Positions 37,401 through 61,169 of a stretch of DNA of 64,000 nucleotides are shown piece by piece. Both the position numbers and the translations under genes were made by a program. The DNA is taken from assembly GCA_018694835.1 (NCBI GenBank), contig JABHOG010000004.1, positions 17,216 through 81,215 of the forward strand, read 5' to 3'. Origin of the DNA: Planctomycetota bacterium (GTDB taxonomy: Bacteria; Planctomycetota; UBA8108; UBA1146). The notes under the pieces are model-generated. The model was given only the letters and a program-made list of their open reading frames with translations, made no database searches and was not told where the DNA came from. The first letter of the stretch is position 1. Each line of letters opens with the position of its first letter.

Positions 37401-37493
37401 CTGATCGTGTTACCGGTGGTGCTCTCCTTCATCCTGAAGGCGAAGAAGCCAGATCTCGCACCAGAAACGGGAGCCGAACAGGCTTCGATGTAG
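34407..37493 (+). CDS. Second RND-family efflux transporter permease
   Basis: 1028 aa; SRPITTLTVHILLVLGGILSIDRIPLSATPNLGRMSVNINIPYPNASPIQVENEVVRPLEE; LMLGVGMLVDTAVVVVESI; 4-nt overlap with the preceding gene. Confidence 0.95.
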   Translation: MKPFVRFCLSRPITTLTVHILLVLGGILSIDRIPLSATPNLGRMSVNINIPYPNASPIQVENEVVRPLEEALATLRRVRGFNSESREGNGRVTLRFDYGEDLDQVKVEIRERLARAMDQLPVEDLDRIRLSTGGWGADADAIMEARISAVGINLSENYDLLVNRIQRPLERLDGVGQVKLDGVTPKEIRISFTKGELERHGLTLGRVAQEIRNSNVDATIGRVWSDGKTRRLRLINALSDVEAMRQMPINRNGLRLGQVATIEKKEGELRWGRHLNGSYAVSLEISQEAGANTVEVCKKVREEVARIALDPQLAGINLLVWQDQGQMIVSSLARLRDAGIIGGGLALMILLIFLRRFSATLLVGMAIPISVLAALSVLHFLDQELNIITIMALMLGVGMLVDTAVVVVESIVRRAGLGDDPMTAATTGTLEVATPVFAATLTTMVVFLPVFISERNGFSDALASVGLVISLTIGASLFVSLTLVPMVAARIYSGGDPGLSSWFMKFRDGYENLLKSAMAHRSVTLTVAVAATLSVVIPFENGFRMDLSDADWKSNYANISYRPVEGLDYREMEKTVTDIENFLASHREVIGEGDIYSWYKDGYALTRIYPPPAMATEDYIAELRGRIDEVLPKVPGFRIRTDEGWGWGGRGHGGGSRSSAGSFRIRLAGDSSSYLDDLGIKVASYLSGIVGIIEAEVVGDEEVDELRLEPDQDLLGRLQVSGDTVARSISSAFSGNRLSQLRTQSGDLDITLGLDEEETDSVEELNFMRFPLTDTLELPIEEIGVVKQVEAPNRRRRDQRLANLTVSVQYDPSSKEQIQQRLETALEKYPWPVGYSWDLGEGWSGRWRNRSSFGEGLYLSVFLVYLVLACLFESLRTPLVLMVTVLLAVPGVIWTLWLQGDALDTPAAVGLILLCGIVVNNGIVLIDQVRRRLEEGLDPITAIRKGASDRLRPILITALTTVLGLIPMAYGTQMLTGPQFNTLGKAIVGGLSASTLLTLIVLPVVLSFILKAKKPDLAPETGAEQASM

Positions 37494-37638
37494 CGATTCC
37501 GAACACTCATTACCCGGAAACGGGTATTGTGCGAGGGGTCGCTCCTCATGATTTTCGGAGCATGGTCATAAACTATGTTCTTGAAGTGGCTTACAGGATC
37601 ACAGTAGATCTGAGTGGAAGCATCAAGAGCCTTTAGAA

Positions 37639-37654
37639 TGGCATGAGTTCTGCC
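37639..37654 (+). promoter_or_regulatory. Sigma54 (-24/-12) promoter candidate upstream of gspK
   Basis: TGGCATGAGTTCTGCC: GG-N10-GC with TGGCA at -24 and CTGC at -12; about 70 nt upstream of the gspK ATG. Confidence 0.6.
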
Positions 37655-37724: not shown

Positions 37725-39239
37725 ATGAATCAGTTACCGCGAGCCCACGAGAATGCGCCACGATCCCCCGAGGGGGGAATTGCGCTGTTCGTCGTGTTGA
37801 TCCTGGTACTGGTCCTGACCGTCGTCATCACCCAGTTGATCTTCGTCACCAAGATCGAGGAGCGAATCTCGCGCAATCGACAGGGTCGAACCGCTCTCTC
37901 CTACGCCTTGCAGGCCTCTGGACGCCAGGTGCTGCTGAATCTCTCCTCTGATTTGATGGAAGATCTCGGCTATCTGGAAGATTTAGAGGAGGAAGATATG
38001 AACGGAATGGAGACCGGAGGGGAGGGGGTGGATACCCAGCTTCCCGGAGGTCTTCCAATTCCAGGATCGGGTGGAGGCGGGGGCGATGGCTCCAGAGGAT
38101 CGGAAGACGACCCGGTCGACACCCACCACGACCTGTGGGCACGCCCGATTCAGGATTCCATCAACGGTGTCGAGGTCGTTGGAATGGTCGTCGATGGAGA
38201 ATCCTGCATCGACCTCAATCACATCTTCTCGCTCGCTGCACTGCCCGAGGATGAGGAGAGTGAACTCGATGCTCTCGAAGAAGCGGCTGCTGGAAACGCT
38301 GCGATTGATGGGCTGCTACAAGAAACGGGACTACTGGAAGAATTCGTGCCTCCAGAGCAAGAAGAAGTCGAAGAAGCCCAGGTGATCCTTGAACGGTTGA
38401 TCGAGGGCGTCATCGATTTCAACACTGAAAATGGCTTCGATTACATCGAAACTCCGGATCCACGAGATACCGCAGAGGCGATCGTTTCGTTGGTTCACCA
38501 GCGTGTCCTCGATGAAAATCTGCGCAGAATCCGTAGCCTGGATTCGATCCGTCAGCTGGAAGAAGTCACCTGGGAGTTGTTCTACGGACCCATCGACCCG
38601 GCGACACTGGAAGAAGATGATGAGTTTGACCAGGAAGATACCGGCGGAATGATGGAGGACCTCCAGGCGCTGGCCCCCGGATCCTTCGACGATCTCGAGG
38701 CATCCGGGTTCGAACTTCTCGATGGGGGAGTGGATCAGATTCCGACTCCCATCGGGCTTCGACATGTCATGACCGCAAACTCGTCGGGCAAGATCAACCT
38801 CAACACCGCAAGGCCTGAGGTGCTGGTCGCCATGCTTCGATCCTTCGAGGATTTCGATGAGGCGAAGGAGATCGCATGGCAGATTCGAGACCATTGCAAT
38901 AGTTACCAGGAGGAGATCGACGAGGTGACCGGGGAGATCATCGACGATCTGCTCAGCGAATTTGGTGTCGAGGATGAGGAAATCCAGCAATTCGAGTACT
39001 TCACCAGTTTCGAGCAGTTGAAACAGGTCGATGAGGCCTGGGAAGACACCAGTGGCTCGGAGGGCTCCGTATTCGAACTCCTGCAGCAGGACCTCGAGGA
39101 TCATGTTGTTTTTTCTAGCAATTTTTTCACCACAACCATCGAAGGAACGAGCGAGGATCGCTCTCTCTCGGGTAGAATGGTTTGTGCCAGGAAAGGACAG
39201 CACGTGGTTGTAATTTCCTGGAAGGAAGTGCGCCGATGA
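37725..39239 (+). CDS. gspK: Type II secretion system minor pseudopilin, GspK-like
   Basis: GGIALFVVLILVLVLTVVITQLIFVTKIEERISRN N-terminal helix; helix-hairpin-like INLNTARPEVLVAMLRSF. Confidence 0.85.
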   Translation: MNQLPRAHENAPRSPEGGIALFVVLILVLVLTVVITQLIFVTKIEERISRNRQGRTALSYALQASGRQVLLNLSSDLMEDLGYLEDLEEEDMNGMETGGEGVDTQLPGGLPIPGSGGGGGDGSRGSEDDPVDTHHDLWARPIQDSINGVEVVGMVVDGESCIDLNHIFSLAALPEDEESELDALEEAAAGNAAIDGLLQETGLLEEFVPPEQEEVEEAQVILERLIEGVIDFNTENGFDYIETPDPRDTAEAIVSLVHQRVLDENLRRIRSLDSIRQLEEVTWELFYGPIDPATLEEDDEFDQEDTGGMMEDLQALAPGSFDDLEASGFELLDGGVDQIPTPIGLRHVMTANSSGKINLNTARPEVLVAMLRSFEDFDEAKEIAWQIRDHCNSYQEEIDEVTGEIIDDLLSEFGVEDEEIQQFEYFTSFEQLKQVDEAWEDTSGSEGSVFELLQQDLEDHVVFSSNFFTTTIEGTSEDRSLSGRMVCARKGQHVVVISWKEVRR

Positions 39240-39261
39240 AGGTTTCGTGGAGGATTAATCG

Positions 39262-40422
39262 ATGCCAAAAGTGAGCATCCAACTACTACGGAGCGGAATT
39301 CTGCTCTTCAATATTTCAGCGATGACCCTGCTCGGGTTCGTGATGTACGACCTGCTGCTCGAATCTCCGCAGGATGTGCCGGTTCGCCTGGTCGATCCGC
39401 AAGACTTCGAGTTGAAGGAGCAGGCTGCTCGTCCGGTTCCCAACCAGTACCGGGAGATCATCGGAGAACTTTACCGCACTGCGCCACAGGCTCCTGTCGC
39501 GCAGATCAAGCCGGTCGAATCGACGCTACCGTTGCTCGATTCGGGCCCCATCGGAGAATGGGAAATCGTTGGAGTCATCTACTCTCCTGAGGGACAGCGA
39601 TTTGCATCCATCCAGGAGAAGGGGCAGACCAATGTCCTCAAATCGTCGAGTCGTAGCGGGCGCCCCGTCAACACGAGCCGTGTTCGCGGTAGAAGCACCA
39701 GGGGTGGTGGAGCATCCGCCATCAATAGGGCGAGTTCCAGAACCTCGGGCCGTTCCCCGACCTCGAATCAACGGGTGCGATACCTGGAGCAGGGCAAAGA
39801 GTTCAGGATCGATGAGAACAGTTACATGGTGGTCGAGATCAAGGACCAACCCAAACAGGTGATCTACGAGCACAACGGACGCAGTTACACCCTTCGTCAG
39901 GAGTCGATCATCGATCCGGTGATCCATGAGGAAGGCGAGACGCTGGTACTGCGGGGATTCAGTCCGGAAGAACTGGAACTTCTCACAGGTGGCCAGACAG
40001 GAGCCAGTGCTGTAGGTCGGTTGTCCGCGATCCCTGAAGATGTGAGGGGCTCGATTCGCGGCAATGACGGCAAGCCGATGCGCGGAACCGAAGTTCCCAA
40101 GTCACCTACCACCCGTCCTACCGGAGTCGTTCCACCCAGAGGTGTTTCGCCGAGGACTCCCACGACCAAGCCCAATTCCAGAACCAATAGTCGTAGTTTT
40201 GGTGATCCCAGGTCAGACCAGAGAGGGAGAGTTGCACCTCCGAACAAGGCCAAGCCGAAACTTCGTGGCGGAACATCCACCCAGACACCCAGCTCAAGGG
40301 TGGGGCAGGCGACTCTTGAAGCGACGCTCGGAGTGGATGTCGAGTCAAACCCTCAGGAAGCGATTCGTCGTCTCGAAGAACTTCAGCGAGCCCGTCAACA
40401 AAACCAGCCAAATCAGACCTGA
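39262..40422 (+). CDS. T2SS inner-membrane protein, GspC-like (assigned by context)
   Basis: Single N-terminal TM, HR-like segment GPIGEWEIVGVIYSPEGQRFASIQ, position in T2SS cluster, low-complexity C-terminus. Confidence 0.55.
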   Translation: MPKVSIQLLRSGILLFNISAMTLLGFVMYDLLLESPQDVPVRLVDPQDFELKEQAARPVPNQYREIIGELYRTAPQAPVAQIKPVESTLPLLDSGPIGEWEIVGVIYSPEGQRFASIQEKGQTNVLKSSSRSGRPVNTSRVRGRSTRGGGASAINRASSRTSGRSPTSNQRVRYLEQGKEFRIDENSYMVVEIKDQPKQVIYEHNGRSYTLRQESIIDPVIHEEGETLVLRGFSPEELELLTGGQTGASAVGRLSAIPEDVRGSIRGNDGKPMRGTEVPKSPTTRPTGVVPPRGVSPRTPTTKPNSRTNSRSFGDPRSDQRGRVAPPNKAKPKLRGGTSTQTPSSRVGQATLEATLGVDVESNPQEAIRRLEELQRARQQNQPNQT

Positions 40423-40458
40423 TTCCCATCCCGAGGATGATTTGAGAGGAGCCCTGTC

Positions 40459-42201
40459 GTGGCCCTGCACGCAGGAATAGAAATCGATGGATCTGACGTC
40501 TCGATCGCAGTGGTGGATTCCACTGCGAAACAGACCGTCATCATCGACTACATCGAGGCCAAGATTATCGGAGAAAGTAGCGAGGAGCGCCTCGCGTCTC
40601 TGGAGTCCATCCTTCATGGAGCACTGGAAAATCACGGGAGCAAGACCATCGAGGTGGTCAGTTCCATTCCGACTCGGATGTCGACCTTGAGAGAGATCTC
40701 GGTTCCATTCACCAATGAAGATGTCATTTCCAAGACGATTCGGTATGAGAGCGAAGGGCATCTCCCATCCGCCTCCATCGATGATCTGATCATCGAGTTC
40801 ATCAAGTGTTCAGAAACTGAAGATTCGAGCCGGCTGCTGATCAGCGCAGTGCAAAAGAAAATCGTCGGTGCTCATCTGGAAATGCTTCGTGAAGGCGGGG
40901 TGGATCCAGTCCAGGTCGAGGTCGATGCCACCGCCCTGGCGACTTCACTCCATGTATCTCGACCAGATCTCAGGGGTGGACGCACTCTTCTCATCGGCAT
41001 GGAAGCGGGTCATACGACCTTCGTTCTGCTCGAGGAGGGAAGAGTCATGAGGATTCGATCGACCTCGAATCATCTCCAGCCATCCGCGATACCGTCGCTG
41101 GCGACCTCCGCGACCGGCAGCTCAAGTGGGGCCGTGGAAGGGTTCGAAACGACTCCTTCAGAATCTGCGGTGGAGTTTGCAGACCTGATGCAAGGAAGCG
41201 AATCGGATGAGGACCTTGGTGGTGAGGAAGAACTCGCCATCGCAGTGGTCTCGGATGAAGACTTCGAGCGATTGAACGCGGAAATGACATCGTCTCCAGC
41301 GCTGCCTCCAGCCGACCCGGAAGAGGTGATTGGGCGACTATTCACCGAGATCGAGCGGACTTTTGCCGGGATCTTGATGAGATCACCGCTGGACCGAATC
41401 GTTGTTTCCGGAAGCGCCGCTTGCGACCTGGGAATTTCGGATCGTCTGGCAGAAGAGTATGAGGTGCCCGCTCAGCAACTTCGTGTCTGCGACGGGGTCG
41501 AAACTGGAATGCCGATAGCCTTGATCGATCGCTGCAACAGATCGGGTGGTGTGTCCGTTGGGCTGGCGCTTCAGTCAGCAGGGCAAGGGCTGACTCGATT
41601 TGACTTCCGTAAGGAAGAATTTCGGTATGAGCGAAGATTTGCCAAGTTGTTGCCTGGACTGATGCTGATGGGATTAATCCTCTGCTTCATGTCCGTGACC
41701 TGGCTGGTCGAAAGCCACCGTGAGAAGCAATACCGCAAAGCAGAGTACGAGACGGTGAGATCCAACGAAGAAGCAGTGTACATGGCCAGGTTTGGCGAGA
41801 GTCCGAAGAGTTCCAAGCCCAATTATTTGAGAAGTGCAGAAAATAAGATCGCTGCATTGAAGGGGGTTGGATCCGGGTCGACCAGGCAGAAACTGGTGCA
41901 GTACTTGCCAGGAATGGATTTGATCAAGGATGTGACCGGAGGAGTCTCTTCAGCGAATCCAAAGGTCTATCCGATCTGGAAATCGATCGAGATCAACGGC
42001 GCCAAGAAAAAAAACGGGGTCTCGACGGTGATCTTCGAGGTGCCAGATGCCGCTTCAGGAGAGCGAGTGATTACAGCTCTGGAGCAGAGGTCCAAGTACT
42101 TTAATATCGAGGATGACATCAAGCCTGCTGGCGATCGGAAAAAGGTCACCCTGAAACTGAAGTTGAAGTCCTCAATTACAGAAACTGACGGGAGGAGGTA
42201 A
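40459..42201 (+). CDS. PilM/GspL-like actin-fold assembly protein
   Basis: HAGIEIDGSDVSIAVVDS, SSIPTRMSTLREISVPFTNEDVISKTIRYESEGHLP, then a TM near residue 400. Confidence 0.8.
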   Translation: MALHAGIEIDGSDVSIAVVDSTAKQTVIIDYIEAKIIGESSEERLASLESILHGALENHGSKTIEVVSSIPTRMSTLREISVPFTNEDVISKTIRYESEGHLPSASIDDLIIEFIKCSETEDSSRLLISAVQKKIVGAHLEMLREGGVDPVQVEVDATALATSLHVSRPDLRGGRTLLIGMEAGHTTFVLLEEGRVMRIRSTSNHLQPSAIPSLATSATGSSSGAVEGFETTPSESAVEFADLMQGSESDEDLGGEEELAIAVVSDEDFERLNAEMTSSPALPPADPEEVIGRLFTEIERTFAGILMRSPLDRIVVSGSAACDLGISDRLAEEYEVPAQQLRVCDGVETGMPIALIDRCNRSGGVSVGLALQSAGQGLTRFDFRKEEFRYERRFAKLLPGLMLMGLILCFMSVTWLVESHREKQYRKAEYETVRSNEEAVYMARFGESPKSSKPNYLRSAENKIAALKGVGSGSTRQKLVQYLPGMDLIKDVTGGVSSANPKVYPIWKSIEINGAKKKNGVSTVIFEVPDAASGERVITALEQRSKYFNIEDDIKPAGDRKKVTLKLKLKSSITETDGRR

Positions 42202-42203
42202 CG

Positions 42204-42752
42204 ATGGCGGATCATGGCAAAACCAGTGATTTGACACAGATCATTCTCCTGACCTTGTTCCTGTGCTCCGGGGTGTTCGGTGCCTGGGGATACTGGTTAC
42301 ACACCAGTGCTGAGGAGTATCGCGCTGCAACCGAAAGTGAGAGTCGCACGTTGACGAATCTCAAGGAACTGCTCAACTCTGCTGAGAGTAAAGAAGTGGT
42401 TCTGGATCATCTACGTCGCGAGGAAAGTAAGAAAAACTCTGGCAAGATCAGCACCACCATCGCCGAGATCATCGAGTCGATGAAAAACAGTGCTTCCAAG
42501 CCCGAGATCAAGAGTCAAAGTAATGATGCGGAACCAAAACAAGGGATCACCAAGCATAGTTATGCTGCGACTTTTGAGAACAGGCCTCTGCGCGAGCAGA
42601 TCACCTTCTTGGCTCATATTCAGACTCGTGCACCTCACCTTGGATTTGAAAAGGTGAAGCTCACCAACAGGGCCAAGAAAGATTCCGAGGCGGAGTTATG
42701 GGAGCTCTATCTGGTGCTGGTGAATTACAGTGGCGAATCGCCCACTCGGTAG
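42204..42752 (+). CDS. GspM/PilO-like T2SS assembly protein
   Basis: Short bitopic protein directly after the PilM/GspL-like gene; N-terminal TM plus coiled-coil. Confidence 0.55.
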   Translation: MADHGKTSDLTQIILLTLFLCSGVFGAWGYWLHTSAEEYRAATESESRTLTNLKELLNSAESKEVVLDHLRREESKKNSGKISTTIAEIIESMKNSASKPEIKSQSNDAEPKQGITKHSYAATFENRPLREQITFLAHIQTRAPHLGFEKVKLTNRAKKDSEAELWELYLVLVNYSGESPTR

Positions 42753-48074: not shown

Positions 48075-48625
48075 TCGTTTCTGCTCTTTCCAAGCGGCGA
48101 CTGAAAGTGCAATTGACAGTCGCCAGGCTCTATTCGAAGTGGAGCTATAGCTGGCACCATCGTTTTCGATGCACACCAACCAAAGCGCAGTTTCCGATTC
48201 CGTCTCGTCCTGCTCATCGCCGCCAAGATTCTCGGGCAACGAGAGGGGCAGGAACCCCGCAGACGCAAATCAGACCGATGATCAAGGAACTGCCGGGGCT
48301 GTGAGCGCGGGGCCTGAGGGGCCGAGGCGCACGGATTCCAGAAGTACCTATTGCTCAAGTGGCGGATTGTAGATCGCCGACGGAACTCTGTCCACCAACG
48401 CCACCCGCTCCAGGAAAGTGGCCTGAAGTTGATTTCCAAACCGATCTCCCTGGATGTTCACTCCAGTATAGAGTGCATCATCAGTGCCAAAAGTGGGGGC
48501 CTGGAAAGCCCCGGAAAGGGGCTGAGAAGGGGGTTGTGTGCGATTTTGACACAGGAGCCAGATCCGCTGTCAAAGATATCTTACCGGGGGCAAATGGGTC
48601 GGGGAGGGGGCCGGAGAGTAAAAGT

Positions 48626-48693
48626 AGGGCCTCCGGGGCTCGAACCTGGGGATCACGCAATCCGAGTTCTCGCCATATCCTTCCGAAGGCCCC
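48626..48693 (-). pseudogene. tRNA-like remnant (degenerate)
   Basis: GGGGCCT (5') can pair with AGGCCCT (3'); T-arm-like CCAGGTTCGAGCCCCGG with one mismatch; no good D arm. Antisense reading gives GPPGLEPGDHAIRV, typical of tRNA-antisense false ORFs. Confidence 0.25.
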
Positions 48694-48717
48694 TCCATTG
48701 ATGATTTCGTCACGGGG

Positions 48718-49653
48718 TCAGAAACTGCTGTTGCTCCCCTCGAGAAGCACCGATTCTGGATCCTCGACGAGGATCTGATCCGATGCGAGCAAGGGGACGA
48801 TGGTCGAGAAGACCTCCTCGAAAGGGGTGCCATCGTCATTGAGGATCTGACCCTGTTCGTCACTGTAGTGCAGGAAAAGAACGATCCGGACCGCCCTCGG
48901 CAGAGGTCGGGGGAGTGGTTCCTCGACGATCACCTCGCCTGTCGCGGGGTCGATGTCGCCCGGCTGAAGGACCGATCCTGTCGCGCTGCCAGTCGCCGCA
49001 GGGGAGTTCCCTTCCCCTTCAGAGGCTGCCGTAGCGGATGTGGGGGAACTGGCTTCTTCCGCTTCCATCGCTGCGATGGCGGCTCTCTCATCGAGATAGG
49101 GAAAGTCGGTCAGGTTCTGTTCTGGCAGCAAGGTCGAGGCATCCCAGTCCTGGGTCCACTCTCCCTCTTCCCCGAGGTACTCGATGTCGAGGGCCAGCAC
49201 CCGATCATAGATGGGGCTTCGATCGCCGGAATCGAAAGGATCCTCGGTCAGATCCCACGAGACCCGGCGGAACAGCACGCTGTCGCCATCCTTCCCCGGC
49301 CGTAGCGCATAGCCGATGGAACTGAGCTCTCCAGTCCAGTTGGGTGTGTCTTCCGAGGGCTCACCCACCGGTGAGGTGGTGATGAAATCGATGGAGTCCT
49401 CGGCGTTCTCCTCCTGGCCACTATCTTCACCACGGAATACGTCGGTACCGAGTCCGCGCCAGGCCACTCCCTGAAGATCGCGTCTCATCTGGGAGAGGAT
49501 CGCCTCTCCGACCTTGCCGGTGAGAGTGGCCCTCTTGATCCTTCGATCCGCCTCAAGGGTGGTGTCGAGGATGGTGTAGCACATCGACATCACGATGGTG
49601 AAGATTCCCAGTACCACGATCAACTCGATGAGGGTGAATCCTTTTTGTGCCAT
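48718..49653 (-). CDS. gspJ: T2SS minor pseudopilin GspJ-like
   Basis: Prepilin motif KGFTLIELIVVLGIFTIVMSMCYTILDTTLEADRR; cluster position. Confidence 0.82.
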   Translation of the reverse strand: MAQKGFTLIELIVVLGIFTIVMSMCYTILDTTLEADRRIKRATLTGKVGEAILSQMRRDLQGVAWRGLGTDVFRGEDSGQEENAEDSIDFITTSPVGEPSEDTPNWTGELSSIGYALRPGKDGDSVLFRRVSWDLTEDPFDSGDRSPIYDRVLALDIEYLGEEGEWTQDWDASTLLPEQNLTDFPYLDERAAIAAMEAEEASSPTSATAASEGEGNSPAATGSATGSVLQPGDIDPATGEVIVEEPLPRPLPRAVRIVLFLHYSDEQGQILNDDGTPFEEVFSTIVPLLASDQILVEDPESVLLEGSNSSF

Positions 49654-50117
49654 CAGAATCCCGATCCGTCGGTAGAGGAGTTCTGAATCTGGGCATTGGT
49701 GGCGAGTGGATCATCGGCTTCGACCAGCACTCGAGTGGTCAACACGTACTCTTCAGTGTTGATCAGATCTGGTCCCGGATACTCGAGGGTCAAAGTGATC
49801 TCGAGTAGTCGTGGGCCAGTCTCCTCCGTGGAGAGATCGGTCACGCTGGCGGACCAGGGCCAGCCTTCCGAGGAGTTATCGCTGCCGGGTAGTTGTGCCA
49901 TTCCGTCCAACCCCTCCGAGAGGCCAAAAGCGACCTCGTCGAGCGATTCTCTGGCAACACGTTCGACCAGCCTTAGATGATTGTAGTTGAAGGCTCGATC
50001 CACGGCGTCGGTTCTCATGTACAGCAAGGTCAGGAAGGAACCGCCGATGATGGCCAGCGCCATCACCAGTTCGATGAGCGTGAAGCCATCTAGCCTCTTG
50101 GAGTCTTGGACTACCAT
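49653..50117 (-). CDS. gspI: T2SS minor pseudopilin GspI-like
   Basis: DGFTLIELVMALAIIGGSFLTLLYMRTDAVDRAFN. Confidence 0.8.
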   Translation of the reverse strand: MVVQDSKRLDGFTLIELVMALAIIGGSFLTLLYMRTDAVDRAFNYNHLRLVERVARESLDEVAFGLSEGLDGMAQLPGSDNSSEGWPWSASVTDLSTEETGPRLLEITLTLEYPGPDLINTEEYVLTTRVLVEADDPLATNAQIQNSSTDGSGF

Positions 50118-50641
50118 TGCGGAAACTCCGCTTCGTCCTCGGGCATGTACTGGATGCTGCCGATGATCGCCTCGAAGTAGACTGCGATCGAATTGTTTTC
50201 TTCATTGGTCAGCAACACGATGTGAGATCCTGTTGTGCCATACTCATCCAGCATGATATCGACGACCCCGGATTCCTCGGATCCACCATCGGGGTGCATG
50301 ATCCGTCTGATCTCGATCCCATCAGGAACCGTCATGGTTCCCATCGTTTGACGTGAGTCGATATCGAGATCAGGGTCTTCATCTTCTTGTGGAGGGAAGA
50401 CGATGGTGAAGGTGTTCTGGGACAGGTCGTACTGGATCACGTACTCCCCACCGACACCTCCGCCGAGACTCCGCGCCCAGCTGATATTCTGGCCGATAGT
50501 ACGGGCGCCAGATCGGAGGCGGTACTTGGGTGAAAGTCCGTCAAGATTCGGAGCCACAACGGATGCCAACAGGCCGAGGATCGTCACGACGACGATCAAC
50601 TCGATCATGGTGAATCCTCCAGTGGTGGCCTGCCGAGGCAT
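50111..50641 (-). CDS. gspH: T2SS minor pseudopilin GspH-like
   Basis: GGFTMIELIVVVTILGLLASVVAPNLDGLSPKYRLRSGARTIGQNISWARS; ATG 50641. Confidence 0.8.
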   Translation of the reverse strand: MPRQATTGGFTMIELIVVVTILGLLASVVAPNLDGLSPKYRLRSGARTIGQNISWARSLGGGVGGEYVIQYDLSQNTFTIVFPPQEDEDPDLDIDSRQTMGTMTVPDGIEIRRIMHPDGGSEESGVVDIMLDEYGTTGSHIVLLTNEENNSIAVYFEAIIGSIQYMPEDEAEFPQW

Positions 50642-50645
50642 GAGC

Positions 50646-51077
50646 TCAGCGTCCGCTCTCGTCGGAGTAGATGTCGGCGTTGTAGTCACCGTTGGCATTA
50701 TCGCCACCCTCGACTCCGTCGGCCCCGAAGGAGATGAGGAGCGGACCCCGATCACCCAGCTCGTAGTAGTAGTACTCGAGGGTCCATGGATCGAGAGGTT
50801 CTGACGACAGGTACTCGATATTGGTGCCGCTTTGAGTTGCTGGAGGAGAAATCAACTCCTCGATGTTGTCGGGCCAACGCTTGTGGTCTTCCCTGAAGAG
50901 TCGAGCAGCGGTCATGATGCTGCTGAAGTCTGCACGAACAGCGGCGACCCTCGCCTGGTCTGATCTGCCAAACACACTCACAACCACGGTACTGGCAAGG
51001 ATTCCAAGAATCGTGATGACCACGATCAGTTCGATCAGCGAGAAACCCGCCTCATGCTTTTGCTTTCGACGGTTCAT
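50646..51077 (-). CDS. gspG: T2SS major pseudopilin GspG
   Basis: AGFSLIELIVVITILGILASTVVVSVFGRSDQARVAAVRADFSSIMTAARLFREDHKRWP. Confidence 0.9.
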   Translation of the reverse strand: MNRRKQKHEAGFSLIELIVVITILGILASTVVVSVFGRSDQARVAAVRADFSSIMTAARLFREDHKRWPDNIEELISPPATQSGTNIEYLSSEPLDPWTLEYYYYELGDRGPLLISFGADGVEGGDNANGDYNADIYSDESGR

Positions 51078-51124: not shown

Positions 51125-52339
51125 TTACAGATTGTTGAACTGCAACAGTGGTAACAGTACGGCCATGACGATGAACCCCACGACCACAGCGAGTAGCACG
51201 ATGATGATGGGCTCGATCATAGCGGTCAGTCTCTGGATGGAGAGATCGATCTCTTCCTCGTAAGTCTGAGAGATTCGGTCGAGCACGCTTTCGAGTTCTC
51301 CGCTCTGCTCTCCAACGGCGATCATGTAGCCCACCATGGGAGGGAACATCTTGGACTTCTTGAGCGGAGTGGAGATGTCAGCACCCTCGACAATGCGATC
51401 TGCAACCTCGGAGAGGGTCTTGGCCATCAATGAGTTGTTGACGACCTTTCCAACGATGTTCAGGGCGTCGAGTGCTGGGAGTCCGCTCTTGAGCAAGATG
51501 GACAGGGTAACCGTGAATCTGGAGATTGCGGATCGTTGCAAGAGCGAACCGATGACGGGAATTTTTAACAGGAAAGTGTCGTATATCAATCGCCCCTTCT
51601 CGGTGGCGATCAGGCTCTTGAGGAAGATCATTATGAGCAGTGTACCGATCATTCCGGGTAGCCAGTATGACTTGAACATGTCACTGATGAAGATCAGGAT
51701 CTCGGTCGGGCGGGGCAAGACATTGCCCTTCTTCACCAGCATCTCGGTGATCTTTGGCACAACGAAGGTCATCAAGAAGGACACGACCATGATTCCGACC
51801 ATCACCATGATCGCAGGATAGGTCAGCGCTGCAGAAATCTTGCCGCGGAGGGACGCCTGTTTTTGCAGGTAGTCTGCAAGACTCAGCAGCACCTCGTCGA
51901 GATTTCCACTCGCCTCACCTGCGCGAACCATGTTGATGTAGAGATCACTGAAGTAGGCAGGGTGCAGAGAGAATGCATCTGCCAGTCCCGCTCCAGAGAC
52001 AATCTTCTCGCGAATGTCGCGGAAGATCACTTCCATCCTGCGATCTTCGATCTGTTCTACCAGCACGGCCAATGCTTCCGAGAGATGGACTCCGGAAGCG
52101 AGAAGTGTCGAAAACTGTCGAGTCAGGATGGCCAGGTCACGGATGTTTGCTTTGCGCTGCAATTGGAAACGGCCTACAGTCCCGCCACCACGTGCGATGG
52201 CATCGATCCGCTGCATCTGAGTGACACGCAGCTTTTTATGACGCAACTTGTCGCGCCCATCGCGTGCCGTATCGGCATCGATGGTGCCCTTCTTGTTGCG
52301 ACCACGGCTGTCGATGGCCTGGTAGGAGTAGATCGGCAT
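51125..52339 (-). CDS. gspF: T2SS inner-membrane platform protein GspF
   Basis: YQAIDSRGRNKKGTIDADTARDGRDKLR; LAILTRQFSTLLASGVHLSEALAVL; C-terminal IEPIIIVLLAVVVGFIVMAVLLPLLQFNNL. Confidence 0.95.
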   Translation of the reverse strand: MPIYSYQAIDSRGRNKKGTIDADTARDGRDKLRHKKLRVTQMQRIDAIARGGGTVGRFQLQRKANIRDLAILTRQFSTLLASGVHLSEALAVLVEQIEDRRMEVIFRDIREKIVSGAGLADAFSLHPAYFSDLYINMVRAGEASGNLDEVLLSLADYLQKQASLRGKISAALTYPAIMVMVGIMVVSFLMTFVVPKITEMLVKKGNVLPRPTEILIFISDMFKSYWLPGMIGTLLIMIFLKSLIATEKGRLIYDTFLLKIPVIGSLLQRSAISRFTVTLSILLKSGLPALDALNIVGKVVNNSLMAKTLSEVADRIVEGADISTPLKKSKMFPPMVGYMIAVGEQSGELESVLDRISQTYEEEIDLSIQRLTAMIEPIIIVLLAVVVGFIVMAVLLPLLQFNNL

Positions 52340-52358: not shown

Positions 52359-54062
52359 CTAGAAGACATCCATTTGGGTGACACGAAAGACTTCATCGGT
52401 AGTGGTGATTCCTTGTGCCACTTTCCTGGCACCGTCCATGCGCAAGGTCCTCAGGTGACCCGATTCGACGGCGACCTGCTTGATCACCGAGGCACTGGTG
52501 CGTGCGATGATCTGGTCGCGAATCGTTTCATTGACGGTGAGGATCTCGTAAATCGCAGTCCGGTCGTAGTAACCCCGGCCGAGGCAATTCTCACAGCCAC
52601 GACCGCGATAGAGTAGTCCCTCGAGCAGGTCGTCTCGGGTCAACCCAAGATTCACCAGTTCGCTGGACTCTGGCTCATAGGACTCCTTGCAGCGGTGACA
52701 GATCACTCTCACCAGTCGCTGGGCGACCACGCCGATCAGCGAAGAGGAAACGAGGTAGGGTTCGACCCCGAGATCGATCATTCGAGTCACCGCACCTGCA
52801 GAATCGTTGGTGTGAAGGGTGGAGAAGACCAGGTGACCGGTATTTGAGGCCTGTACGGCAATCCCGGCAGTTTCCTCGTCTCGAATCTCTCCTACCATCA
52901 TCACATCTGGATCCTGCCGCATCAGCGATCGGAGGCCTGAGGCGAAAGTGAGACCTTTCTTCGTCGAAACCTGGATCTGGCTGATGGTGTCGAGGTTGTA
53001 TTCGATGGGGTCCTCGATGGTGATGATGTTCAACTCTTGTGAGTCCATCTCGGACAGGCCGGCATAGAGGGTCGTGGTCTTTCCAGAACCGGTGGGCCCT
53101 GTGACCAGCAAGACGCCATGGGAAGAGTTGATCAACTTGTCGAGAATCTGGTAATTCTCGCTGTCGAGACCGATCTCTTCCAACTTGTAGAGGCGTGCGG
53201 TCTTGTCGAGAAGACGGAACACGATTCTTTCGCCATAACTGGTTGGGACCGAGGAGATCCTCACGTCCAGATCTCCGTCTCCAACCTTGAGCGAGGTTCG
53301 ACCATCCTGGGGGAGTCTACGCTCGGCGATATCCATCTTGCCCATCACTTTGACCCTCGAAACGAGTGCGTCCTGGATCTTCTTGGGAATGACCTTGGTA
53401 TCGTAAAGAATTCCATCGATGCGATACCTGACCTGCAGGCGATCGGCAAAAGGCTGCAGGTGAATGTCGGATGCTCGGTTCTTTTGCGCCTCGAACATGA
53501 TCGTGTTCATCAGCTTGATGATTGGAGCCTTGTTGGCGATGTCGAGTACGTCCTCGGTCTCGTCGATTTCAGCTGCGATTCCGATCAGATCGTCCTCATC
53601 GAGTCCTTCGAGGAGTTCGTCCACATCAGCACTCGATTTTTGAAACGCTCGGTTGATCAGAGCGGTGATCTCCGCACGAGGAGAGATCACGGGTTCGACG
53701 ACTCTATCGACCATCGCTGCGAGGTCATCCATCGGCTGTACGTCGAGCGGATCGCAGGTGGCGACATGAATAACTCCTGGGGTCTCACTGACGGCCACCA
53801 GGTTGTAGGTGCGCGCAAATTGTGGGGGCACCATATGAGTGAATTCTTCAGGAACACTGCAATCGGTGAGATCGGGGAAATACGGGATGCGAAGCCTCTT
53901 CGATAGCGCTTCCAGTAGAGCCACTTCGGTGACATAACCTTTCTCACGAAGGATCTTGTCGAGAGGCATGCCGGTGGAGTGTTCCTCCTGCTGGCACTCG
54001 TTCAACTGGTCTTCGTTGAGGAGTCCTTCTTCGATCAGATCGCTGAAGAGGGAGAGTCTCAT
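52359..54062 (-). CDS. gspE: T2SS ATPase GspE
   Basis: GPTGSGKTTTLYAGL, EDPIEYNLDTISQIQV, RQDPDVMMVGEIRDEETA, CHRCKE...CENCLGRGYYDRTAIYE. Confidence 0.96.
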   Translation of the reverse strand: MRLSLFSDLIEEGLLNEDQLNECQQEEHSTGMPLDKILREKGYVTEVALLEALSKRLRIPYFPDLTDCSVPEEFTHMVPPQFARTYNLVAVSETPGVIHVATCDPLDVQPMDDLAAMVDRVVEPVISPRAEITALINRAFQKSSADVDELLEGLDEDDLIGIAAEIDETEDVLDIANKAPIIKLMNTIMFEAQKNRASDIHLQPFADRLQVRYRIDGILYDTKVIPKKIQDALVSRVKVMGKMDIAERRLPQDGRTSLKVGDGDLDVRISSVPTSYGERIVFRLLDKTARLYKLEEIGLDSENYQILDKLINSSHGVLLVTGPTGSGKTTTLYAGLSEMDSQELNIITIEDPIEYNLDTISQIQVSTKKGLTFASGLRSLMRQDPDVMMVGEIRDEETAGIAVQASNTGHLVFSTLHTNDSAGAVTRMIDLGVEPYLVSSSLIGVVAQRLVRVICHRCKESYEPESSELVNLGLTRDDLLEGLLYRGRGCENCLGRGYYDRTAIYEILTVNETIRDQIIARTSASVIKQVAVESGHLRTLRMDGARKVAQGITTTDEVFRVTQMDVF

Positions 54063-56446
54063 GGTGTTTTCTCCGCCTCCGTGGCTGCAGTCCCTGGTCT
54101 GACCAGGGGAGCGAGCTCCTGATCTCGAACATTGTCTGGATCGGAGAATTGTTGAAGTTTCAGATCGTCCTGGAAGGACCGGACTCCGTGGATCGCATCC
54201 CTGGTGAAGTCGCCTAGATTGTTGAAGCGATCGTCGTTGAGGATGTGTGCGCTCAGGAACACATACAGGTTGTCGCGAGCAGTGTTGGAACCACTCGACT
54301 GGAACAGCTTTCCGATGATGGGAAGATCGCCCAGCAGTGGAACCTTGCTCTGGATCTTGCCTTCCGCCATCTGGGCCAGCCCGCCGATGATGAACATGCC
54401 TCCGTCTGGAATCGTCACCTTTGAACTGATGACATTGGTCGACCGGTCGGGGAGGGCACCGGTTCCGTCGGATACTCCCGAGAAGGAAGACACTTCCAGT
54501 TCCAGTTCCAGCAGTACGACTTCGCTGGAAATGGTAGGAATCAATGAAAGTGTGATTCCGGCACTTTCTGACTGCTGAGAAGTGGTGGTGTTGACATTGG
54601 TCGTATTGGAACTGGTGTAGAAGATCTCGTTCTGGACAGAAATCGAGTTCTCCTGATTGTCGTCCGCCAGGATGAACGGTGTGGCGAGGATGTTGGAGTC
54701 TTCATCTGATTTCAATGCACTCATGATCAATGGGAACTGGCCATCCTGCTGGATCACACCGCTGATTCCGGAGCCACCGATGCCCGGGATCCTGTTGACT
54801 CCCGTGATCACTCCATTGGGATCGACATTGGGAAGCACCTCACTGGCACCGAAGGAACTCAGAAGGATGCCTGTCAGTGCCTGGTCGTCGAGATTTCCGG
54901 CGAGGAACTCGAGAGTGTAGTTGAGACTGGAACTATCTTTCACTTGAACCAGCGCCACCTCGAGAAACACCTGGCTACGACGCTTGTCGATCTGTGTGAG
55001 GATCGCCTCGATCTGCTCGAACTCTTCCGGTTCGGCCTGGATGATCAACGAGTTGGTAGGCTCGTGGGGCACGATCCGTGTTGGAGTGAACTGTTGCTGT
55101 TGTTGCACTCCTCCGGTTCCGCCGGTGGTTCCTCGACTGTTTCGGCTGGTGGTGCCACGGCTAGTGGAGCCCCGGCGCAATGATCCTTCAGATCCTTCGA
55201 CCAGTTGCCGGATGTTATCTGCAAGTTCCTCCGCCTTGAGGTAATTGACCTTGTAGATCCAGGTCGTGTTGCGGATGTTTCGCACCTTGGTGTCGAGTTC
55301 GTCGATCAACTGGTGAACCAGATCGAGTTCTGCCGGATCTGACGACTGGATCAGAATCTTCTGGGTGCGATTGTCCGCGATCAAGCGGGTTGATTCACCC
55401 GCCTGTGTGCTACCGCGACCAAGGGTACCCCGGTTGGCGGTGCTGCCGCCTCGTGCCCCGGAGTTGCTGGGGGTCGGGGTCCTGCGGCCAGTGGAGCCAA
55501 AGGCGGATGTGTCACTCAGGGCTTCCTGGACGATGCTCACGATGTCCTGGGCGTCGGCGTAGAAAAGCTCGCGAATCACAAGTACCTCTTCAGGGCCACG
55601 GACCTCGACATCGATGTATTCGACGAGCCGTTGAATGTGATCGAGGACTCGCATCTTGGCCTTGATGATGAGGGTCTCATTGTTGGTCACGGTGACGATC
55701 TTGAGGCTGCCGCTCTGACTTCCGGCGCCCTGGATTCCGAGTAACTCCTGGAGCGCCTGGCGAACCACGGAGGTCTCGACATGTTGCAACTGCAAGACCA
55801 GCGTGGCCAGTTCATCCCCTGTCTCGAAGTCGGGTTCTGAACCCGCCTCGATGATGGGGCTGACCGGATCGGTGGGTGGTTGGGTCCGTGCGGTGGTCGC
55901 TCGGACGTTGATGACCACGGTGCCGTCGTCGAGGGTGCTCTCCCACAACTCGTAACCGTTGGTTTCGAGAATCGCCTGGACGATGGGATAGGTCAGGGGA
56001 TCGACATCGCCCACCACATCGACAAAAGTCTCCTCGGCAAATGCCGGGTCATTGCCAGTGGAAGGGTAATTCACGAACTTGCCAGAGGTGCGCTGGATGA
56101 AGCGCATCAGGCTCAGAACGGGAAACTTGCCCTCTTCCATCCGGTACATGTCTGGGTTTGAAGCCGCCGAGTCGTCTGCTTCTGCAGTGTTGTTGGCTTC
56201 TGCAGTATCGTTGGCTTCTGCAGTATCGTTGGCTTCTTTACGGGCCGCTTCTTCGGCCGCCTCCTCCGCGGAGGCAGGATCGGGAGGATCCTGAGCCAGC
56301 AGGGCACCTGGAAGTGCAATGCTGAGGGAGATGAACAGTACCAGGATGGCCACTGGGGCCATCGTGGAGGAAAAGATCAGAGTCTCTTCGGTGGAGACTT
56401 TCGAATTGCGGGCCATTGTGACACACCCTTCCGTCGTCGGGTTCAT
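54059..56446 (-). CDS. gspD: T2SS secretin GspD
   Basis: N domains, GT/S-rich insert, secretin motifs VTIPDGGMFIIGGLAQMAEGKIQSKVPLLGDLPIIGKLFQS; ATG 56446 with ggaagaaggaac RBS. The longer ORF start is unlikely. Confidence 0.93.
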   Translation of the reverse strand: MNPTTEGCVTMARNSKVSTEETLIFSSTMAPVAILVLFISLSIALPGALLAQDPPDPASAEEAAEEAARKEANDTAEANDTAEANNTAEADDSAASNPDMYRMEEGKFPVLSLMRFIQRTSGKFVNYPSTGNDPAFAEETFVDVVGDVDPLTYPIVQAILETNGYELWESTLDDGTVVINVRATTARTQPPTDPVSPIIEAGSEPDFETGDELATLVLQLQHVETSVVRQALQELLGIQGAGSQSGSLKIVTVTNNETLIIKAKMRVLDHIQRLVEYIDVEVRGPEEVLVIRELFYADAQDIVSIVQEALSDTSAFGSTGRRTPTPSNSGARGGSTANRGTLGRGSTQAGESTRLIADNRTQKILIQSSDPAELDLVHQLIDELDTKVRNIRNTTWIYKVNYLKAEELADNIRQLVEGSEGSLRRGSTSRGTTSRNSRGTTGGTGGVQQQQQFTPTRIVPHEPTNSLIIQAEPEEFEQIEAILTQIDKRRSQVFLEVALVQVKDSSSLNYTLEFLAGNLDDQALTGILLSSFGASEVLPNVDPNGVITGVNRIPGIGGSGISGVIQQDGQFPLIMSALKSDEDSNILATPFILADDNQENSISVQNEIFYTSSNTTNVNTTTSQQSESAGITLSLIPTISSEVVLLELELEVSSFSGVSDGTGALPDRSTNVISSKVTIPDGGMFIIGGLAQMAEGKIQSKVPLLGDLPIIGKLFQSSGSNTARDNLYVFLSAHILNDDRFNNLGDFTRDAIHGVRSFQDDLKLQQFSDPDNVRDQELAPLVRPGTAATEAEKTP
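56175..56246. repeat. 18-bp tandem repeat in gspD (TTGGCTTCTGCAGTATCG), encoding an (A/N)NDTAEA linker
   Basis: Two perfect units (56193-56210, 56211-56228) plus imperfect flanking units. Confidence 0.85.
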
Positions 56447-56594
56447 GGCTGTTCCTTCTTCCTTGATCGGCTGGATCGGGGATTCTCTTTCGGGGAGATT
56501 CCGGATTCTCCTGGCGGGATGGTTCCAACAGGGGCCCCGGCGTCGACCTCTCAGTTTCTCAATCAACGAGGAAACACGGGTCTGACCATCATTA

Positions 56595-56610
56595 CGCAAA
56601 TGAAATGCCC
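56595..56610 (-). promoter_or_regulatory. Sigma54 (-24/-12) promoter candidate upstream of gspD
   Basis: Minus strand GGGCATTTCATTTGCG: GG-N10-GC with GGCA at -24 and TTGC at -12; about 150 nt upstream of the gspD ATG. Confidence 0.6.
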
Positions 56611-56755
56611 GTCCATGCCAACCGGGCAAGTTCCACAACTTTATTTTCTAAAGGGAGTTATGGATATTCCGGTAACCATCAATAGGAGGAGCTTGGCTGA
56701 TCTGAGGTAGAGAGTGTAGTGAAATCGAACAGAATAAGGAGAGGGAGACGGTCTC

Positions 56756-57529
56756 TCAGGAAGGGCGATCCAGTTCGTCGAGGAGTTTCTCGACCGCCGG
56801 CCAGAGGTGTTTGGGGGTCCGGATCATCAGGCTGTTGGAGGCCTGATGCGTGATCACGTGAATCGGCTGCCCGCCACGCTCTTTCCAGGCTCGATCCAAC
56901 TCGAGGGCGAGTTCCTTGGCGCGGCCAAAGCGAGTGGCCCAATTGCGTAGCACCGGCCGGTGGGTTCCCGCCACCGGGGGGCAGTCCGCTGCCGAGAGCA
57001 ACTTCAGGTACTGTTCGAGACGGCGAGGGGAAGTACAGGAGATGACGACTGAGCCGGTTCTTGGATCGGGCACAAAACGGCTGTAACGGTCGAGGGCTCC
57101 GATCTCCTGCTCCCTCTTGCGTGCGTCTTCGCGTAGCAATTGGCAGATCGGTTCCGGATCCAGATGCTGCAGTGCGACCACCCGGATCTGGTAGCGCGCC
57201 AACGGCGGCTCGCTGTCGGGATCGGTGGTGGCCCAGTGGGGACCTCGCACCAACCCCTTGCGAATCGGCTTCAGCTCGATCCCTTTCGACTTCAACTGCG
57301 CTCTCAGAATCAGAGCGCTGGAAGAGGAGGAGAGGTTCAGCGGTCGCAGCAGCGGGATCGATCGGTGGCCGAGGATTGGACTCTCCAGGATGACCGACTG
57401 ATCGGTGGCCAGGCTCCAGCCCTGCAGAAGGAAGCCCGCTGGAATCTGACCGGCGGGAATCACCGATTGATTCGATTGTGGCAAAGGAACCAGCAATCCG
57501 ATCCAGCAGGAAAGTAGCACGGGAATCAT
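56756..57529 (-). CDS. Secretin N-domain-like protein lacking the secretin channel domain
   Basis: Signal peptide; two N1/KH-like units (YQIRVVALQHLDPEPICQLL...PDPRTGSVVISCTSPRRLEQYLKLLSAAD; RAKELALELDRAWKERGG...HQASNSLMIRTPKHLWPAVEKLLDELD); ends before any beta-barrel motif. Confidence 0.6.
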   Translation of the reverse strand: MIPVLLSCWIGLLVPLPQSNQSVIPAGQIPAGFLLQGWSLATDQSVILESPILGHRSIPLLRPLNLSSSSSALILRAQLKSKGIELKPIRKGLVRGPHWATTDPDSEPPLARYQIRVVALQHLDPEPICQLLREDARKREQEIGALDRYSRFVPDPRTGSVVISCTSPRRLEQYLKLLSAADCPPVAGTHRPVLRNWATRFGRAKELALELDRAWKERGGQPIHVITHQASNSLMIRTPKHLWPAVEKLLDELDRPS

Positions 57530-59418
57530 GAGGTACCGTCTCTCGGCTCCAGTTGCAGGTTTCGAATTCTGGAGTAGAGAGTGGAGCGTTCGATTCCGAG
57601 GATCTCAGCGGCTCGCTTCTTGTTCCAGTTCACATGATCGAGCACCCGGGAGATGTGCTCTTTCTCCAGTTCCTTCAACGAGATCGGTTGCCACTGAGCG
57701 GTGGAGTCTGCTCCTGGTTTCCGCGATGCGGTGTGATCTAGCCGAAGATCATCGACCTCCAGCAAGGTCGCTGGAGCCAGAATCACGGCACTTTCGATGA
57801 CATTTCTCAGTTGGCGAACATTTCCAGGCCAAGAATGCATTCGCAATGCCGTCATGGCATCCGGGGAGAGTTGCTTACGCTGGGGACTTCTCCCGCAGCA
57901 GAGATCGAGAAAGTGTTCCGCTAGCAAGTCGATGTCACTGGGTCGATCCCGCAGCGGTGGTACTACCACCTCGAGCACCGCAAGCCGGTAGTAGAGGTCT
58001 TCTCTGAAGCGCCCCTGTGCCACCTCCTCTTGTAGATCTCGGTGGGTGGCGGCGACGATTCTCACATCGATGTCGATGGAGTTGTTGCCCCCGACTCTCT
58101 CTAGCCTCTTCTCCTCGAGTAATCTGAGCATCTTGGACTGGGCAGAGGTGGGCAACTCACCGATCTCATCGAGGAAGACCGTACCTCCTGATCCCGCCTC
58201 GAACTTGCCGAGCTTCTGCTGGTCGGCACCGGTGAAGGCACCTTTCTCGTGGCCGAACAGTTCACTCTCGACCAGGTTTTCTGGAATGGCTGCACAGTTC
58301 ATGGCAATGAAGGGAGCCGCTGCTCGACTTCCTTGGTAGTGAATTGCCCTGGCGACCAGTTCCTTCCCGGTGCCGGTTTCTCCCCGGATCAGCACGGTCC
58401 CATCCGTAGGGGCTGTTTTGCGGATGAAGTTACGAACCTGTTCGATCTGAGATGAGCTACCGATGATGGGCATCGAGTCGATCACCGTTCGAACCAGCTC
58501 TTCACGATCGGTAGACAACTCGATCAGGTCTTTTCCGACCGAGAAACTGGCCCCGATGATGCCTGCAGCGATTCCCGCGCCCCACAATTCTTCATTACCG
58601 AAGGGCCGTTGGTCTCCATCCAAGCGGTCGAGGTAGAGGATCCCACCGATGCCGTCGTGGACCGGGATCGGAGCAGCGATCACCGAGCGAATCTCATCGC
58701 CGACGACGCTACGGCGATCTGCGAAGCGCAGGTCTTCCGTGGTATCCCGCGAAATCACGGCTCTTCGCGATTGCATCACTTCGCTATGAATCGTGTGACT
58801 CAGTACGAATCCATGCATGGGGGTTCCACCGCGAGACCATGCAGAGCGGCAGAGCCAGCCATCTTCTTCACTGATCAAGATGGCACCCCGGTCCGCATCG
58901 ATACCTTCAACCAGTAACCGTAGACCTTTTTCAAGGCGCGCCGAGTTCTCCTCGGCTGATCGGCCAAGCAGTGGAGCACAGGAGTGCAGAGCCCCGAGTA
59001 CCTGGCCCGATCGCTTTCCGTCCAGATCTTCGGGAGACACCTCGATTCGATGAACCACCTGGGTTCTGGAAACCGACTCCGATGCCGTCGTGACCGCTGC
59101 TTCAAGTCGAATCTCACAGTCTCCTATGGCGAGCAAGTCGCCCGGTGCCAGTTCAGATTCTCTTATCGGGTCATTGTTGAGATAGGTGCCGTTGGATGAC
59201 TCCAGGTCGACCACATACCAGCGTTGATCCCTGCAACTCAAACGGGCATGGAATCGGCTCGCCGCACCATCGTCGATGGTCACATCGGCTGCCGGATCAC
59301 GGCCGATGATGACTCCGCCTTCTTTGGCCTGTTCGGTCGAGATTTCGACCACAAGAAAGGCGCCGGCAGAGGTACAGATGTGGAGACTGGTGCTCAGGGT
59401 CCACCCCCCTGATTCCAA
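57526..59418 (-). CDS. Sigma54-dependent activator: FHA - GAF - AAA+ (GAFTGA) - Fis-type HTH
   Basis: FHA GRDPAADVTIDDGAASRFHARLSC...LESSNGTYLN; GETGTGKELVARAIHYQGSRAAAPFIAMNC; ELFGHEKGAFTGA; C-terminal HTH VNWNKKRAAEILGIERSTLYSRI. Confidence 0.95.
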   Translation of the reverse strand: MESGGWTLSTSLHICTSAGAFLVVEISTEQAKEGGVIIGRDPAADVTIDDGAASRFHARLSCRDQRWYVVDLESSNGTYLNNDPIRESELAPGDLLAIGDCEIRLEAAVTTASESVSRTQVVHRIEVSPEDLDGKRSGQVLGALHSCAPLLGRSAEENSARLEKGLRLLVEGIDADRGAILISEEDGWLCRSAWSRGGTPMHGFVLSHTIHSEVMQSRRAVISRDTTEDLRFADRRSVVGDEIRSVIAAPIPVHDGIGGILYLDRLDGDQRPFGNEELWGAGIAAGIIGASFSVGKDLIELSTDREELVRTVIDSMPIIGSSSQIEQVRNFIRKTAPTDGTVLIRGETGTGKELVARAIHYQGSRAAAPFIAMNCAAIPENLVESELFGHEKGAFTGADQQKLGKFEAGSGGTVFLDEIGELPTSAQSKMLRLLEEKRLERVGGNNSIDIDVRIVAATHRDLQEEVAQGRFREDLYYRLAVLEVVVPPLRDRPSDIDLLAEHFLDLCCGRSPQRKQLSPDAMTALRMHSWPGNVRQLRNVIESAVILAPATLLEVDDLRLDHTASRKPGADSTAQWQPISLKELEKEHISRVLDHVNWNKKRAAEILGIERSTLYSRIRNLQLEPRDGTS

Positions 59419-61169
59419 CTTCTCAGGATGCGGTCGCGGTCGAGGAGGCCGAGGATTTGCACCTGGCCGATGCGAGTGTTCCAGCGCGCCAGGTCTCCTT
59501 CACAGCGAATCGCCGGAGCCCCTCGTGGGATGGCATCGATGGGCAGAGTGAAGGTCACTGTGGAGACGAGATTCGCGGGGTCCTCCTGGCGTGAAATCTG
59601 GAGGCGGAACCTGGCACGCTTCGGATCTTCGGAAGGTCTTCGTTCCAGGGTGATGGAATGATCGATTCCTTCCTGGATGAATGCCGATTGCGACTGCTGT
59701 TCCACCTCGATAACAACCGGAACTCCGCTCCGAAGTGCCTCGATGCGGGGAGCGATTCCGCGACCCACCGCCAGGCCTATTCGTAGCCGGTCCCCAGGGC
59801 GTTCCGGATCTTGACCGGTTCTCAACTCGAGATCGGGAGTCCCGAGACAACGCAATCCATCGATGCGCCATCTGCGTAATTCCTTCAGATATGGGAAGGA
59901 AATGGCGCGCGGATCGTTGGCCCACAGTAATGATCCGTCGCGGACCACCGGCGCAATCTGGACATGTCCTCCCGCTGGCTCGGGGAGGGCTGGGTATCTG
60001 AAGAAGCGCTCGACCCGATCTCCGTCTTCTCCGAAATCGTAAGAGAGAAGTTCGTAGGGAGATGAACTGGAGAGGATTCCTCGCAGAAATCCATCGACCT
60101 GGATGCCAGTTTCTACCGCTCGACCGGGCCAATAGGTCCCCAGCAGGATGGCACAGAGAATCAGCGTCATGGCCATCGTGAGTTGTAGGACGGAGAGTCG
60201 AGTTTTGACGGGAGGGTCGATCTTCAGCTGCAATTGTTCCAGTTCCGAAAGCAATGCTCCATGGTCGTGTGGCCGATCTTCCGGACGCTTCTCCAGCATC
60301 CGAAGGACCAGCAGTGCCAGTTCAGGATGGATGCCTGAGCGAAGAGCGGCTGGAGACCTGGCTGGCTCGTTGACCTGGGCGACCATCAAGTCCACCCGAG
60401 AGTCTCTTTCGAAGGGAGGCTTGCCCGTGAGCAGGTGAAACAGCGTTGCGCCGAGACTATAGATGTCGGAGCGCTCGTCGAGAGCCCAGCCCTGGATCTG
60501 TTCGGGGGATCCATACTGAGGAGTGCAAAGAAACTCTGGTTCGTCCTGAGGATTTTCGCCGAGATTTCCCGCCAGGCCGAAGTCCACCAGTTTGACGACT
60601 CCGCGAGAGTCCTGTAGCAAGTTCGAGGGTTTCACATCTCGGTGGATGATGCCGCTTCTGACGGCAGCACGAAGTGCTCGCGCGGCAGAGATGGCGACGC
60701 GAATCGTTTCTGCAGATGACATGGGGCCGTGTTTCTCGACCTGGATCTCGAAACTGGGCCCCTCGAGAAACTCCATCACCAGGTAGGGAGGATCTTCGTC
60801 CTCATGGATGGCGTGAATTTGACCGATATTCGGGTGACTGACTGCAGCGATCGCGCGCGCCTCGGTGAGAAACCTCTCACGGATGTCGACGCTCTCCTGC
60901 AAGCGAGGGTGGATCCTCTTGATGGCAACGGTTCTCTGCAACCGTGGATCACGGGCACGGTAAACCACTCCCATTCCGCCCTCGCCGATTTTTTCTTCGA
61001 TGGAGAAGGAGCCGATCTGGTCGAGGCGAGGAGTTTTCAATGGCCGGGTCTCATCATGTGAACTTCCCGCGTCGGTGGTGTCGCCGGGGGAAAGCCTTCG
61101 ACTGGGAAGCAAGTGAGACCCCTTTCCTGAGAGAAGCGGTCGGGACTTCTCGCCTGAGCACGTGGCCAT
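59394..61169 (-). CDS. PknB-type Ser/Thr protein kinase with C-terminal TM and extracytoplasmic region
   Basis: IGEGGMGVVYRARDPRLQRTVAIKRI, IIHRDVKPSNLL, VDFGLAGN, YGSPEQIQGWALDERSDIYSLGATLFHLLTG; TM LTMAMTLILCAILLGTYW. Confidence 0.95.
   Translation of the reverse strand: MATCSGEKSRPLLSGKGSHLLPSRRLSPGDTTDAGSSHDETRPLKTPRLDQIGSFSIEEKIGEGGMGVVYRARDPRLQRTVAIKRIHPRLQESVDIRERFLTEARAIAAVSHPNIGQIHAIHEDEDPPYLVMEFLEGPSFEIQVEKHGPMSSAETIRVAISAARALRAAVRSGIIHRDVKPSNLLQDSRGVVKLVDFGLAGNLGENPQDEPEFLCTPQYGSPEQIQGWALDERSDIYSLGATLFHLLTGKPPFERDSRVDLMVAQVNEPARSPAALRSGIHPELALLVLRMLEKRPEDRPHDHGALLSELEQLQLKIDPPVKTRLSVLQLTMAMTLILCAILLGTYWPGRAVETGIQVDGFLRGILSSSSPYELLSYDFGEDGDRVERFFRYPALPEPAGGHVQIAPVVRDGSLLWANDPRAISFPYLKELRRWRIDGLRCLGTPDLELRTGQDPERPGDRLRIGLAVGRGIAPRIEALRSGVPVVIEVEQQSQSAFIQEGIDHSITLERRPSEDPKRARFRLQISRQEDPANLVSTVTFTLPIDAIPRGAPAIRCEGDLARWNTRIGQVQILGLLDRDRILRSWNQGGGP

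Follow-up and report, generated by a model that had tools for sequence, protein, structure and literature searches.

Enhancer-dependent sigma54 transcription requires sigma54, an AAA+ activator carrying the GAFTGA motif and, usually, an enhancer; the NifA site is TGT-N10-ACA. Studholme and Dixon reportedly described, in 2004, the sigma54 activators of Pirellula sp. strain 1 in silico. A 2025 survey found that COGs of the type II secretion system (T2SS) are over-represented among the predicted targets of sigma54, chiefly in Myxococcia, with COG2165 in Planctomycetia, and stated that a direct action of sigma54 on all T2SS genes is not fully established (PMC12316311). Sigma54 control of T2SS has already been proposed statistically, and the case described here, from a window of 64,000 nucleotides (the whole stretch of DNA that was analysed) of a Planctomycetota bacterium, is a well-defined instance of it. 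Our literature search did not return a description of the exact combination of features found here.

The window carries two T2SS clusters. On the minus strand, the secretin gene gspD (54059-56446; Pfam Secretin and Secretin_N) heads gspD-E-F-G-H-I-J, with gspE (52359-54062) encoding an ATPase with an MshEN domain, gspF at 51125-52339 and the pseudopilin genes gspG, H, I and J at 48718-51077 (T2SSG and N_methyl domains). GspE and GspF score over the cut-offs of TIGR02533 and TIGR02120, respectively, and the GspD (NCBIfam) and GspG models are the closest for their proteins yet score under cut-off; the secretin, ATPase, inner membrane protein and major pseudopilin are grouped, as in a T2SS operon. 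On the plus strand, a gspK-like gene and its downstream genes, a PilM-like gspL and a gspM-like gene (37725-42752), were assigned by a weak GspK match (NF037980, below cut-off), a PilM_2 domain and conserved order. The clusters had been described as divergently placed, which is wrong: they converge, with kelch-HEAT-kelch genes between them, and this convergent order is conserved in the family. A motif model for c-di-GMP binding also gives the GspE protein a score just short of its cut-off, which together with the MshEN domain hints at an additional, second-messenger input besides transcription.

The site of interest lies at 56595-56610 on the minus strand (GGGCATTTCATTTGCG), in the 309-bp gap between the gene for a Secretin_N-domain protein (56756-57529, minus; PF03958), whose position between the activator gene and gspD is conserved in the family, and the likely gspD start, an ATG at 56446 with AAGGAAGAAGGA just upstream. 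It contains GG-N10-GC, GGCA and TTGC, all as originally reported, and with the -12 C at 56596 transcription is predicted to start near 56584. As a match to the consensus it is weak, with G for T at position 1, T for C at position 6 and T for G at position 7; the consensus TGGCA/TTGC context is partial in the window genome and full in relatives.

Scored with an approximate sigma54 position weight matrix (PWM) whose weights we set ourselves, the gspD site ranks only 39th among all positions of the window and 6th among the non-coding ones, and 56 of 1500 dinucleotide shuffles of the gspD intergenic region score as well, whereas shuffles equal the gspK site in 6/1500 cases and the site ahead of a kelch-repeat gene in 7/1500. 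One PWM match, at 18146-18161, falls within a local GGCAGTGCC repeat. The original prediction had proposed such a scan as a check on whether its sites rank at the top, and had named many equal or better matches as the outcome that would speak against it; because such matches are found in this one genome, the support first offered for it is insufficient, and we discarded PWM ranking by itself as evidence. Using element patterns that we likewise set ourselves, here and below, and chose after inspecting the alignments, GGCATNNNATTTGC occurs once in the genome, or 25 times with at most one mismatch versus 6 in the control, and TGGCAY-N5-YTGC occurs 35 times versus 11; the latter excess shows that the genome holds sigma54-type sites beyond chance. 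With its rank of 39 and its shuffle score the gspD motif is thus near chance in a single genome, but conservation lifts it above chance.

Indeed, GG-N10-GC is kept upstream of gspD in 16/16 family genomes (the window genome and 15 others, with gspD identities of 56-97%). The sites in genera g2 and g4 read TGGGCATCCAGTTTGC, TTGGCGGCTGATTTGC and TTGGCTCCCCATTTGC, the more diverged members approaching the consensus (TTGGCGGCTGATTTGC in G007 and TTGGCTCCCCATTTGC in G009). Elsewhere in the class, the gspD upstream region holds TTGGCACGGCCCTTGC in another family (G020, G022, G028) and TCGGTCCATTTTTTGC or a near variant in a third (G017, G019); no convincing sigma54 site was found upstream of gspD in phylum-level relatives. 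When seven widely diverged representatives were aligned on the -12 base, 13 columns were identical in at least six of the seven, against a mean of 1.15 and a maximum of 6 in a shuffle null; eight of these columns fall inside the -24/-12 element, GG and TTGC being invariant, and pairs of representatives are 44-75% identical within the site versus 22-37% in the rest of the region. Among the 40 best PWM matches in 37.1-57.4 kb, which served as a control, only the intergenic sites of gspD, gspK and the kelch gene kept GG/GC as well as a high score wherever alignable; a few coding matches keep GG/GC, presumably reflecting protein conservation, but their scores wander. Conservation in the family and among the seven representatives points to purifying selection on the gspD site, which on this comparative evidence very probably represents a genuine sigma54 promoter.

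Two dyads accompany it. The candidate enhancer (UAS), TGTTCGATTTCACTACA at 56715-56731 on the minus strand, is a TGT-N11-ACA dyad centred 127 bp upstream of the -12 C; it is kept in 16/16 family genomes as well as in G020/G022/G028 and G017/G019, with its centre 127-128 bp from the -12 base, or 136-137 bp in G005, G007 and G009. A second dyad, TAAC-N17-GTTG (56636-56660, minus; consensus TAAS-N17-STTA), is centred 52 bp upstream of the -12 C, and the consensus with at most two mismatches is found at gspD in 16/16 genomes, centred 51-52 bp from the -12 base. The alignment also reveals a further inverted repeat, GTTACCGGAATATCCATAAC at 56657-56676 (minus), which is unique in the window, occurs at the gspD promoter only and is kept in genera g1, g3 and g5.

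The same elements precede the gspK cluster. Its companion sigma54 promoter, TGGCATGAGTTCTGCC at 37639-37654 on the plus strand, has a predicted start near 37665, and the site, TGGC..TGC, is present in 16/16 family genomes. The gspK UAS dyad (TGTAGCGATTCCGAACA, 37489-37505, plus) is centred 156 bp and the second dyad, TAAA-N17-CTTA (37569-37593, plus), 72 bp upstream of the -12 C; gspK regions of the family combine the sigma54 site with the second dyad at 71-72 bp and with TGT-N11-ACA (at most one mismatch) at 154-157 bp, the sequence covered in G001 starting within its UAS. A search of class-level gspK genes for this architecture gave nothing convincing. The gspD and gspK UAS are the same palindrome in opposite directions, the reverse complement of the former closely matching the latter, and the second-dyad distances at gspD (52 bp) and gspK (72 bp) differ by about two helical turns. 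When one mismatch at most is allowed, the UAS pattern has seven matches genome-wide, those at gspD and gspK among them, and none in the control. This rarity, together with two shared dyads at near-fixed spacing, supports the earlier proposal that both T2SS clusters belong to one regulon. In the aligned genomes the putative promoter, enhancer dyad and second dyad recur at near-fixed spacing in a conserved gene order, and the promoter, the enhancer dyad and the architecture common to gspD and gspK are strongly supported; since the same set of sites precedes the gspD operon and the gspK cluster, the secretion machine as a whole is probably under a single switch.

Between the clusters, a third sigma54-like promoter, TTGGCACTGATGATGCAC (48474-48489, minus), lies ahead of the kelch-repeat gene and reads TTGGCAC..TTGC in relatives; it has an enhancer-like dyad of its own, TGTGTCAAAATCGCACA, at 48537-48553. 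Neither TAAS-N17-STTA nor a gspD-type enhancer was seen at this promoter, and we did not place it in the T2SS regulon; because the half-sites of TGTGTCAAAATCGCACA differ, it may use another activator. Just after gspJ there is also a compact structured element (48620-48694, minus), whose outer stem is about 11 bp long and whose inner stems and loop sequence are conserved; a T-run follows. It is single copy, is conserved across three genera of the family (g1, g3 and g5), has no convincing Rfam or tRNA match and is possibly a terminator-borne small RNA.

The presumed activator, an enhancer-binding protein with FHA, GAF, AAA+ and Fis HTH domains (57526-59418, minus; Pfam), is indeed adjacent to the gspD region, as first claimed, and is intact, with GAFTGA in its translation and a DNA-binding domain. 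Its gene is overlapped by that of a Ser/Thr protein kinase (59394-61169, minus; PF00069), so that kinase, activator and Secretin_N protein precede gspD, all in the same direction. In the family as in the class the kinase gene keeps its place upstream of the activator gene, and the activator adjoins gspD with the kinase ahead in six genomes of the class (G017, G019, G020, G021, G022 and G027). The genome encodes two intact, divergent RpoN paralogs with AID, CBD and DBD (G000:C114:342 and G000:C63:29864; L001 and L002), and of the 24 genomes of the class that were searched, 21 have two RpoN copies. From the domains of the activator, the kept kinase-activator-gspD order and the intact RpoN we therefore infer that kinase-dependent signals reach the activator via its FHA domain and turn it on, and that it would then drive both T2SS promoters.

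The reading that we favour, with a probability of about 0.88, is that 56595-56610 is the -24/-12 element driving gspD-E-F-G-H-I-J. The FHA-GAF-AAA+-Fis activator would bind TGT-N11-ACA ~127 bp upstream as well as the matching gspK dyad, loop to RNAP-sigma54 and open the promoter, so that both convergent T2SS clusters would be expressed together. The Ser/Thr kinase ahead of the activator would probably give the signal through the FHA domain, and a further protein, which could be a co-regulator or one that bends DNA, would bind TAAS-N17-STTA. A bolder version, to which we give slightly less than an even chance, makes TAAS-N17-STTA the site of a separate sequence-specific regulator acting with the Ser/Thr-kinase-controlled FHA activator; T2SS expression in the class would then be a two-input sigma54 switch of an undescribed kind.

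The activator is matched to the UAS purely by its neighbourhood, and a different enhancer-binding protein may act at a genuine gspD promoter while the adjacent FHA activator serves other promoters. The genome encodes about 13 full-length sigma54 activators, the kelch promoter nearby has a different enhancer-like dyad, and relatives carry, on the strand opposite to the T2SS activator and some 7-8 kb upstream of it, a further sigma54 activator gene (L033:2062-3012, L036:2225-3178), a position before which the contig of the window genome ends. (L036 comes from a genome of the same Planctomycetota genus deposited as a Bacillota bacterium.) Against this, the kinase-activator-gspD order and TGT-N11-ACA are kept together across families of the class, and we regard a different activator as unlikely, if the most plausible of the alternatives.

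We consider it less plausible still that gspD is expressed mainly from a sigma70 promoter or by readthrough of the operon for kinase, activator and Secretin_N protein, the conserved block having a minor or other role. The upstream genes, all in the same direction, overlap or nearly so, and no minus-strand terminator was found in the gap ahead of gspD. However, no sigma70-like promoter was found in the gspD upstream region, the conservation of GG-N10-GC and TTGC is a sigma54 signature, and the same companion elements stand at gspK, where the upstream genes are unrelated. The original assignment of a sigma54 promoter to gspD is thus supported by the 16/16 family genomes, the other families of the class, the adjacent intact activator and the lack of a sigma70-like site in this region. 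Finally, a chance match within a block conserved for another factor's site or for an N-terminal extension of gspD would fit the marginal single-genome score and the gspD frame, which in the window genome has no stop codon upstream as far as a TTG at 56638, but is very improbable, as the length from site to gspD ATG varies through indels in the family alignment with conservation falling in discrete blocks, the invariant positions are sigma54 contacts, and distant relatives have better consensus sites at the same place, the class-level sites largely refuting this reading.

Taken as a sigma54 promoter under the control of the adjacent activator, the gspD site and its gspK companion would form a concrete regulon open to testing, in a phylum where few promoters are known: the elements of both promoters are named, and there are candidates for the activator and the kinase. 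Such a regulon would also tie Ser/Thr phosphorylation to secretion in Planctomycetota. The locus shares with NtrC/NifA-class promoters the -24/-12 element, an upstream dyad at enhancer distance (100-200 bp) and a GAFTGA AAA+ activator with a Fis-type HTH. Its candidate enhancer differs from the NifA site in having a spacer of N11 rather than N10, its activator would sense through FHA and GAF domains instead of a receiver domain, and it has an extra dyad, TAAS-N17-STTA, at near-fixed spacing, which is the part without a known counterpart that our analysis could name. As is reported for Pirellula sp. strain 1, which belongs to the same phylum, activators are paired with nearby promoters. Whereas the 2025 survey linked T2SS COGs to predicted sigma54 targets (PMC12316311), footprinting here yields a specific promoter pair, an enhancer and a candidate activator in Planctomycetota. 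With these, the control of type II secretion by sigma54, at which statistics had hinted, would become a defined case.
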